Below are positions 61,507-63,392 of a DNA stretch of 64,000 nucleotides, piece after piece. The translations under genes and the position numbers were made by a program. Below the pieces are notes generated by a model, which worked only from the letters and a program-made list of their open reading frames with translations, did not search any database and was not told the origin of the DNA. The first letter of the stretch is position 1; every line of letters starts with the position of its first letter. This DNA is from Erythrobacter neustonensis (GTDB lineage: Bacteria > Pseudomonadota > Alphaproteobacteria > Sphingomonadales > Sphingomonadaceae), in contig NZ_CP016033.1 in NCBI RefSeq assembly GCF_001663175.1, forward strand, positions 558,001 to 622,000, in the 5' to 3' direction.

Positions 61507-62549
61507 TTTTTGCAGCCTTGCTCGCAGCGCCTGCCGCAGCGCAGGAAATGGTGGTCATCGCGCACCGCGGCGCGAGCGCCGAGCGGCCCGAGCACACGCT
61601 CGCCGCCTATGAACGCGCGATTGATCAGGGCGCGGACTATATCGAGCCCGATCTGGTCGCGACCAAGGACCTGGTGCTGGTGGCGCGGCACGAGAACGAA
61701 TTGTCGGGCACCACCGATGTCGCCTCCCGCGAGGAATTCGAAGACCGCCGCCGCGACAAGACCATTGACGGGCAGCGCGTGGCAGGCTGGTTCGCCGAGG
61801 ACTTCACCCTTGCCGAACTGAGGACGCTGCGGGCCAAGGAACGCATTCCGACGCTGCGCCCCGCCAATGCGCGGTTCGACGGGCTTTACGAGGTGCCGAC
61901 CTTCGCCGACATCGTCAGGCTGGTGCGCGCTAAGGAGGCCGAAAGCGGGCGGCGGATCGGCCTCTATCCCGAGCTGAAGCACCCCACCTTCATGCTCCAG
62001 TATGCCGGGATCGACATGGTCGACCTGTTGCTGCGCGACTTGTCGCAGCTCGGCATCACGCCGCAGGACCCGGTCTTCATCCAGAGCTTCGAGATCGCGC
62101 CTTTGCAGCGGTTGAAGCAGCGCGGGGGCGGGTTCAGGCTGGTGCAGCTGGTCAAGCCCGAGGACGGCCCGGCGGACGAACCTGCGATCCGCTATGCCGA
62201 GATGATCGCGCCTGCCGGCCTTGCCGAGATCGCGAAATATGCCGATGCGGTGGGCGCGCATATCGCGCTGCTCCTGACCCCCGATGGCACGCCGACGACG
62301 CTTGTGGCGGATGCCAAGGCGGCGGGATTGGCGGTGCATGCATGGACCGTGCGGCCCGAAAACGAATTTCTGCCTGCCATGCTGCGATCAGGGACGGACC
62401 CGAAGGGGCGCGGTTGCGACGGCGCATTGCTGGCGATGCTGCGCGCGGCGGGTGTTTCGGGGGTGTTTGCCGATCATCCGGGCCGCGCCGTGGACGCGGT
62501 CAAAGGCGGGAAGGAAAACCTGCTGTGCAGCGTCAGCGGCGCCAGATAG
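61485..62549 (+). CDS. glpQ: Secreted glycerophosphodiester phosphodiesterase
   Basis: 354 residues. A signal peptide ends AAPAAAQ. VVIAHRGASAERPEHTLAAY, YIEPDLVATKDLVLVARHEN, LYPELKHPTFML and the C-terminal FADHPG define the GDPD fold of the periplasmic GlpQ type. It hydrolyses glycerophosphodiesters to glycerol-3-phosphate. Confidence 0.95.
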   Translation: MVRSLALIFAALLAAPAAAQEMVVIAHRGASAERPEHTLAAYERAIDQGADYIEPDLVATKDLVLVARHENELSGTTDVASREEFEDRRRDKTIDGQRVAGWFAEDFTLAELRTLRAKERIPTLRPANARFDGLYEVPTFADIVRLVRAKEAESGRRIGLYPELKHPTFMLQYAGIDMVDLLLRDLSQLGITPQDPVFIQSFEIAPLQRLKQRGGGFRLVQLVKPEDGPADEPAIRYAEMIAPAGLAEIAKYADAVGAHIALLLTPDGTPTTLVADAKAAGLAVHAWTVRPENEFLPAMLRSGTDPKGRGCDGALLAMLRAAGVSGVFADHPGRAVDAVKGGKENLLCSVSGAR

Positions 62550-62615
62550 GTTCTGCGCCCTGTTTGACCCCTGCCAGACCCCGGTTCGATGCCTTTCACC
62601 GCGGGCCCGAGTGGA

Positions 62616-62631
62616 TGTTTCACGTGAAACA
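62616..62631. promoter_or_regulatory. parS: parS centromere site (ParB-binding palindrome)
   Basis: TGTTTCACGTGAAACA at 62616-62631 is an exact match to the canonical bacterial parS palindrome, extended by flanking A/T to 18 bases (62615-62632). It is in the 105-base non-coding gap between the convergent ends of the GDPD gene and ubiG. ParB nucleates here and spreads to form the partition complex. No other full match was seen in the window, and parAB are not in view. Confidence 0.93.
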
Positions 62632-62654
62632 TACGCGGCGGGCAAGCGCCCGAA

Positions 62655-63392
62655 TCAGGCGTGCCGCGCGCTAAGAATATAATTGAGCGAAAGATCGTCC
62701 GACAGGTGCAGCCCCTTGCCCGGACGCCACGCGATCCCGCGCTGTGCGGTCACGCGCAAACCCGCATCCGCGAGCAGCGCCTCAAGCTCGTCGGGGGTGA
62801 CGAAATCCTCCCAGTGGTGCGTGCCGCGCGGCACGTATCCGACCATTTCGGCAGCGCCCACCAGCAGCAGCCGCGAGGCCGCGGTGCGGTTGGGGGTGGA
62901 CAGGATCAGCAGGCCCCCGGGTGCCAGCCGCGCGGCGACATCGCGCAGGAACGCGGCCTTGTCCGAGACATGCTCGATCACCTCGACGCTTGTTACCAGA
63001 TCGAATTCGCCGATATCCTGCCCGGCGACCTCACCCGCCATGTAGCGGATATCGAGGCCCACACCTTCGGCATGCGCTGCGGCCGCCGCGACATTCTCCG
63101 CCGCGGCATCGACCCCGGTCACCGCAGCGCCCAGCCGCGCGAGCGGTTCGCACAAGAGTCCTGCCCCGCAGCCGATATCGAGCGCCGTCTTGCCCGCCAG
63201 CGGCCTTGCTGCGCGCGGCGCATCGGGCCAGTGCGCATCGATCGCATCGCGAATGAACGCCATCCGCACCGGGTTCACCTGATGCAGGCTCGCCATCGGG
63301 CCCTTGGGGTTCCACCAGTCGCGCGCCAGCTTGCTGAAGAAATCGGCTTCCTCGGGCCGGATAGTTACATTCGATACGTTTGCGTTTCCCAT
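62655..63392 (-). CDS. ubiG: Ubiquinone biosynthesis O-methyltransferase
   Basis: 245 residues. [20 protein letters not shown] is the UbiG-specific N-terminal motif; [19 protein letters not shown] is SAM motif I, and [20 protein letters not shown] and [20 protein letters not shown] follow. It methylates two hydroxyls of the ubiquinone ring. It is divergent from lysC. Confidence 0.97.

Follow-up and report, generated by a model that had tools for sequence, protein, structure and literature searches.

The parS element between a GDPD-like gene and ubiG

The window, by which we mean the whole 64-kb stretch of DNA that was analysed (positions 558001-622000 of a 3,090,363-bp genome in one contig, referred to here as G000), contains a single match to parS at up to three mismatches. 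This match, located by motif search, is the exact 16-bp core TGTTTCACGTGAAACA at positions 62616-62631 (no strand), which A at 62615 and T at 62632 extend to an 18-base palindrome, and it corresponds to a genome position of approximately 620.6 kb. In 100 dinucleotide shuffles of the window, matches at up to three mismatches averaged 0.12, and 12 of the 100 shuffles contained at least one. The core resides in a 105-bp convergent intergenic gap (62550-62654, no strand) that houses the composite element described below. To its left lies a GDPD-like (glycerophosphodiester phosphodiesterase) gene on the plus strand (61548-62549), with a possible open reading frame start further upstream, whose best NCBIfam match, NF008354, scored 164 bits against a cut-off of 254; to its right lies ubiG on the minus strand (62655-63392; TIGR01983, above cut-off). 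The initial annotation of this DNA had described an exact canonical 16-base parS palindrome, 18 bases with its A and T flanks, outside coding sequence between these two genes, and both the match at 62615-62632 and its placement were confirmed.

One side of the core carries a phased array of GGGTC units on the minus strand, occupying 62555-62603 with limits set by eye. Counted outward from the parS edge, GGGTC units start at 34 and 45 bp, and degenerate units in phase with them can be made out by eye at about 13, 24 and 56 bp. The pattern used to count array pairs matched at genome positions 620564-620581, which is 62564-62581 in the window, and no GGGTC was found within 130 bp on the other side of the core. 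An orphan ParA/MinD-type P-loop ATPase is encoded at 1940-2668 (best Pfam match AAA_31, also BcsQ) next to an rpoZ-like gene (1417-1761), and no link between this gene and the window parS was found.

The ubiG locus was compared in 28 clade genomes and G036; G012 gave no ubiG, a second G015 copy of the gene was left out, and four of the other loci end early at contig ends. A parS at up to three mismatches was present only in G000 and in G033. As the site at this locus is found in just two of the 29 genomes, the window copy is young.

Distribution and conservation of parS sites

Across the whole of G000 there are 63 parS sites, of which 52 are exact and 11 carry a single mismatch; no two-mismatch copy was found. 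A reversed control pattern gave no exact match and one match in the mismatch search, and by our own arithmetic base composition predicts about 1e-4 exact copies, compared with the 52 observed. Eight of the sites form a cluster at 950.1-955.0 kb, partly within rsmG, mnmG and mnmE and adjoining parA and parB, with hemE and rho (rho by eye) downstream at 956.5-959.5 kb; the remaining 55 are dispersed. The window core is identical to the cluster sites in rsmG and mnmG, while the immediate flanks of the copies share a weak consensus at most.

Bacterial parS sites are described in PMC7333895 and PMC5815017 as lying most often near the origin. The initial annotation had taken the site as a sign that the right end of the window is probably origin-proximal, with the true parAB genes outside the window. 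The second part of this prediction held, as the parAB region is at 948-959 kb and the window at 558-622 kb. The first part did not. The region containing parAB, rsmG, mnmG, mnmE and hemE is 328-339 kb away (328 kb from the window parS to parB and 338 kb to hemE), exact copies occur across most of the chromosome, and the GC skew of sampled stretches, though somewhat noisy, switches sign at two places, near 1.0-1.1 Mb and near 2.6-2.7 Mb. Together, the genome-wide counts, the gene positions and the GC skew rule out the window parS as an origin marker, and we give virtually no credence to the reading that it marks a nearby origin. The site is a canonical parS by sequence and the origin inference fails; with exact parS so widely spread, finding one copy is a poor guide to where the origin lies in this clade.

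With genes called by a codon-usage script, convergent and tandem gaps hold 20 each of the 55 dispersed sites and divergent gaps four; the other 11 are in called open reading frames, three of them being 1 bp from a called start and thus possibly intergenic. Only 15% of intergenic bases belong to convergent gaps, yet 20 of the 44 intergenic sites fall there (p 1.4e-6), and divergent gaps contain fewer sites than expected (4 of 44, p 0.001). This depletion suggests that the sites avoid promoters, as ParB spreading might demand. Even spacing of the sites was not significant in G000 (p 0.125) and weak in G021 (p 0.029).

A gradient from origin to terminus was tested in G000 and G030. Among the dispersed G000 sites, exact copies are nearer the origin (median 0.64 Mb) than one-mismatch copies (1.26 Mb, p 0.0013). 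The same holds in G030, where seven exact dispersed sites lie at a median of 0.18 Mb from the origin and 37 imperfect ones at 0.86 Mb (p 0.0007), five of the 55 sites of that genome, all with two mismatches, not being used. In G000, a 401-kb stretch around the terminus (2476-2877 kb) contains no exact site and six of the ten dispersed one-mismatch sites; a gap of this size has a p of 0.09 alone and of 0.014 if it is required to contain the terminus. In G021 the sites run through the terminus region, and the longest site-free stretch (193 kb) falls on an arm; a strict terminus-free zone is not general.

Two other complete genomes, G021 and G030, each of a different species, were compared in 20 stretches each, chosen to hold sites. 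A place was counted as conserved when a gene next to the site had a G000 ortholog with a parS no more than 1.2 kb away, for which rough arithmetic gives a chance level of about 10%. By this measure, 15 of 21 dispersed sites from the G030 stretches occupy conserved G000 places; five of the remaining six have no ortholog in the G000 stretches compared and one has an ortholog without a site. The G021 stretches likewise gave 15 of 21, the other six comprising four without an ortholog in the G000 stretches compared and two orthologs without a site. In G021 no site carries the canonical parS, and 52 of 57, in the cluster and dispersed alike, read TGTTCCACGTGGAACA. Within one gene, 325 bp from its 3' end, the same place reads TGTTTCACGTGAAACA in G000, TGTTTCACGTGGAACA in G030 and TGTTCCACGTGGAACA in G021. 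Since cluster and dispersed sites of G021 share TGTTCCACGTGGAACA, one factor, presumably ParB, would read all of them, and a joint change of all sites is the expected effect of a single reader protein.

G000 encodes one ParB_N protein, with the domains ParB_N, HTH_ParB and ParB_C and a TIGR00180 match above cut-off, which can be aligned along its length with 24 other ParBs and has its nearest named relatives in Porphyrobacter sp. LE19-388.1B (83%) and Erythrobacter oryzae (78%). The gene adjoining parB is of ParA type by family matches, none of them above the NCBIfam cut-off among the matches listed. No second ParB or Noc paralog is present in G000, and the ParB itself scores 199.9 against TIGR04285 (Noc), for which the cut-off is 315. 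The lone ParB_N protein rules out a second paralog reading the dispersed sites, so that one ParB must serve all of them, if they are ParB sites. MipZ was a strong match in 59 of 61 genomes of the genus, the others being a fragment (G047) and a weak family match only (G057), and SMC was matched in all 61, above cut-off in 53; where a match fell short, the assembly was incomplete and the protein fragmentary or missed. Both proteins occur in genomes with few and with many parS sites, which rules out loss of SMC or MipZ as a release from the origin rule, and as MipZ is equally common in low-count genomes it does not explain the parS expansion.

The abundance of parS in G000 is rare. The pattern TGTTYCACGTGRAACA occurred 54 times in G000 and at most eight times in each of the other 397 genomes in a sample of 398 from the phylum, a draw that included no other high-count genome of the genus. 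In a survey of 298 genomes from 96 genera of the family, the 291 from other genera had no more than 13 copies each and only seven of these had more than four. Within the genus (61 genomes), exact counts range from 0 to 52, and at up to two mismatches the genomes separate into a group with 1-6 sites and one with 11-89. In an SMC tree built from 60 genomes (a quick search with six rows under half filled, and with G014 left out as its SMC is in pieces), the 29 high-count genomes, with at least 11 sites, are one side of a single branch (SH-aLRT 98), and shuffled high and low labels required a mean of 20.3 changes. Because the high-count genomes sit on one side of one branch, we read the expansion as having arisen once.

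Scattered parS has been reported for few lineages, including Bacilli, according to the portion of PMC8357415 that cites Livny et al. 2007. In the literature, as judged from titles and the beginnings of abstracts among the matches listed, no parS set spanning a whole genome was recognised for Erythrobacter, Porphyrobacter, Sphingomonas or Sphingomonadales, and to our knowledge no conserved parS set of this chromosome-wide, largely composite kind has been described.

Five of the seven family genomes with more than four copies are all five sampled members of one genus, g95 (G160, G221, G270, G308 and G342), which have 5-13 parS per genome and no GGGTC array pairs; these are perhaps a related or an independent smaller expansion. 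Also outside the home genus, G248 (genus g63) has eight parS copies together with seven array-pair matches.

The phased GGGTC array

In tests over all k-mers, with p values left uncorrected for their number, GGGGTC/GACCCC was found to be enriched next to parS in G000, occurring in 39 of 45 intergenic gaps with parS and in 35 of 386 other gaps. The gaps with parS are longer on average (259 vs 156 bp); among convergent gaps only, where the mean lengths are 170 and 150 bp, the result is the same, with the hexamer in 17 of 20 gaps with parS and 3 of 49 without. Outward from the parS edge, the GGGTC units of G000 start at 12-13, 23-24, 34, 44-45 and 55-56 bp. At least two units lie on one side within 130 bp at 41 of the 63 G000 sites, and 36 of these 41 have none on the opposite side. 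With a looser unit, composite sites number 46 of 63 in G000, the window site included. In the stretches of G021 and G030 they number 18 of 29 and 14 of 27, respectively. Units recur every 10.7 bp in G000, 10.8 bp in G021 and 10.85 bp in G030, with vector strengths of 0.92, 0.92 and 0.82. As the units stand at whole helical turns from the parS dyad, this arithmetic puts them on one face of the DNA.

Averaged base composition on the array side oscillates strongly at the array period in each of the three genomes, where none of 300 random-shift nulls was as strong, and no such oscillation was detected on the non-array side. By unit count, no site of the parAB cluster has an array in G000, G021 or G030, and 17 of the 63 G000 sites, nine of them dispersed, are without one. 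A much weaker phased signal is nevertheless seen in G+C at the cluster sites, where none of 300 nulls matched it, and also at dispersed sites counted as lacking an array (2 of 300 nulls), and the split into two classes is therefore not absolute.

Between species, the array is retained along with its orientation. Among 29 orthologous pairs of dispersed sites, 19 have an array in both members, five in neither and five in one species only, and in 18 of the 19 pairs with two arrays the polarity is the same. The number and sequence of units vary while the in-phase spacing stays. GGGTCTG is the commoner unit in G000 and GGGTCTA in G021, so the array, like the parS consensus, differs genome-wide between species. 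The G000 sites at 99999, 2037439 and 2048950 and their orthologs in G021 and G030 lack an array alike (this class makes up the five pairs with an array in neither), and they are perhaps of an older kind that predates the array.

The element was also approached from the array. In G010, an exact parS stood in phase, 12-53 bp off, at nine of 13 array places and was missing from the other four. In the G000 stretches, which are mostly centred on sites, 48 array pairs had a parS upstream and one did not, a ratio that does not support the array as a general intergenic repeat. Over the whole G000 genome, at least 34 array places were found, of which at least seven lack a near-exact parS (from the 50 of 60 matches listed). 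At two of these seven, at about 899.8 and 1791.8 kb, a parS is split by an insert after TGTTTC, 22 bp long and nearly identical at the two places by eye.

Neither the replication arm nor the direction of transcription accounts for the side on which the array lies. On the right arm 13 arrays are to the left of parS and 12 to the right, and on the left arm 10 and 11, which rules out an arm-dependent polarity. At sites in tandem gaps, the C-rich strand runs with transcription in ten cases and against it in eight.

The array pair pattern was counted in 80 genomes, in which a reversed control gave 0-4 matches. Of the 29 high-count genomes on the tree, 16 had 10-220 matches and 13 had 0-2; elsewhere in the genus, two further high-count genomes had 36 and 119, and 32 low-count genomes had 0-2. 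As the array is abundant in just 16 of the 29, the parS expansion is wider than the array sequence. In ten sites each of G034 and G038, phased units of another sequence were suggested by eye; a test for diverged arrays left this unsupported in G034 and weak in G038.

Candidate roles for the dispersed sites

On the sequence evidence, the window site is one copy of a dispersed composite element made up of parS and one-sided, phased units of GGGTC type. We strongly infer that all copies are nucleation sites for the single chromosomal ParB, and hold with moderate confidence that the array is read by a putative second DNA-binding or DNA-bending factor alongside it. ParB loads at parS as a CTP-dependent sliding clamp, and under the proposed model it would load in this manner at all copies. 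The second factor, lying along one face of the DNA, would modify the loading, sliding or bridging of ParB at the dispersed sites and not at the origin cluster. ParB would be spread over the nucleoid, with the strongest sites towards the origin and the weakest towards the terminus, and ParB-bound MipZ would block FtsZ over most of the chromosome in the manner of Noc or SlmA, but through ParB itself. A dispersed composite parS network of this kind, loaded by ParB and read by a second factor, is the explanation we consider best overall and somewhat probable. As for purpose, nucleoid occlusion by MipZ-coupled ParB is a guess, somewhat less likely than not; it is made because MipZ is found in 59 of 61 genomes, because the sites weaken towards the terminus in two genomes, and because the layout of Noc binding sites (NBS), as described in PMC7383237, is similar.

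The main rival to occlusion is the anchoring of loops by SMC. Here ParB would recruit condensin at the dispersed sites, so that SMC-ScpAB is loaded or paused at about 55 places, giving many anchored loops in place of one origin-anchored zipper, with the polar array setting direction or halting ParB or SMC on one side. The presence of SMC throughout the genus (61 of 61, 53 over cut-off) and an array that is polar, phased to parS and conserved in polarity would fit this reading, as would the loading of Smc by ParB-parS in B. subtilis described in PMC8357415. The same paper reports that in B. subtilis Smc collisions become noticeable when strong parS sites are far apart, although growth is hardly affected, and the independence of array side and replication arm (13/12 and 10/11) is a misfit with a simple origin-to-terminus direction. 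On balance, loop anchoring seems unlikely, though not markedly so. It is more doubtful that the elements are mobile or homogenised repeats of little function with parS as a passenger. High copy number and turnover, the window copy being shared with only one of 28 other ubiG loci, would be expected of such repeats, as would the species-specific unit sequence (GGGTCTG in G000 and GGGTCTA in G021); on the other hand, the sequences adjoining the core have no more than a weak consensus in common, sites hold their places and polarity from species to species and avoid the promoter-bearing divergent gaps, and the phase spacing is constant despite varying unit number and sequence.

Two further readings concern what recognises the array or the palindrome. 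The arrays could be rut sites, at which Rho loads, in which case the elements would terminate transcription at gene ends and ParB would be the roadblock, a reading suggested by the single C-rich strand, the regular spacing, and the preference for convergent gaps, often close to a stop codon. In tandem gaps, however, the C-rich strand is opposite to transcription nearly as often as co-directional (8 vs 10), some elements lie in divergent gaps, and phasing to a site for a protein on double-stranded DNA is unexpected for an RNA signal. We take the orientation to rule out the Rho or terminator reading of the array, and the scenario as a whole is very improbable. Slightly less probable still is that the palindrome is merely parS-like and read by another factor. 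CACGTG-centred palindromes are common regulatory sites, but the core is identical to those of the rsmG and mnmG sites beside parAB, and both sets differ jointly in G021.

The preferred reading, a composite network loaded by ParB, can be set against several known systems. With the ParABS systems of Caulobacter and B. subtilis, G000 shares the 16-bp core, a single canonical ParB with parA adjacent and a cluster by parAB; it differs in having 55 further copies round the chromosome. In Caulobacter, according to the available text of PMC5815017, a second parS cluster is tolerated best within about 500 kb of the native one and strongly disfavoured mid-arm, with a limited tolerance zone elsewhere, and a cluster at +1000 kb leads to elongation and segregation defects. 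The eight parS sites of B. subtilis extend over about 0.75 Mb (PMC8357415, in the part available). Noc and its NBS sites in Firmicutes also place palindromes of the ParB family chromosome-wide, and NBS sites are described as avoiding the terminus (PMC7383237), while in G000 and G030 site quality declines away from the origin; unlike that system, G000 has no Noc paralog, its site is parS and not NBS and is joined to an array, and the terminus region of G021 is occupied. In Sulfolobales, the palindromic sites of the segregation protein SegB are likewise scattered over the chromosome, densest near segAB (PMC12284271, in the part available). SegB is a different protein, its enriched sites are mainly in genes (83.7%) whereas those of G000 are mainly intergenic, and the portion of the SegB description available contains no phased array.

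Phased or direct repeats also occur in plasmid centromeres, such as the 11-bp repeats of ParR/parC and the A and B boxes of P1 parS. Helically spaced direct repeats of this kind could seed protein binding in a line down a single face of the helix; the difference is that the G000 array is joined to a chromosomal parS of ParB type, at 46 sites. KOPS/SRS, matS and SlmA sites are short chromosomal motifs with a global distribution and a spatial function. The elements described here share with them short motifs and global distribution and differ in that the array side is independent of the arm, the sites are not confined to the terminus and the sequences are different.

Taken further, these features raise the possibility, to which we would give slightly less than an even chance, of a polycentric chromosome in this clade of Erythrobacter/Porphyrobacter type, in which ParB would be a chromosome-wide organiser acting through about 55 graded centromere sites, in this species mostly parS with a polar, phased array for a second protein, and subject to a concerted switch of consensus. 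If so, the usual rule of origin-bound bacterial centromeres would be broken by a clade that has not lost ParA, ParB, MipZ or SMC and yet keeps dozens of parS sites all over the chromosome, often at conserved places. Such a clade would be a natural system in which to study how arms are aligned, SMC is loaded and division sites are chosen when centromeres are numerous, how some 50 sites and the protein that binds them come to change in step, as in G021, and what reads a phased array tied to a ParB clamp-loading site.

Finally, on the SMC tree the end branches of G000 (0.24) and G034 (0.30) are long relative to the 0.04-0.13 of most clade neighbours. G034 is also odd in its letter make-up, and an acceleration of SMC evolution in these two genomes is possible.
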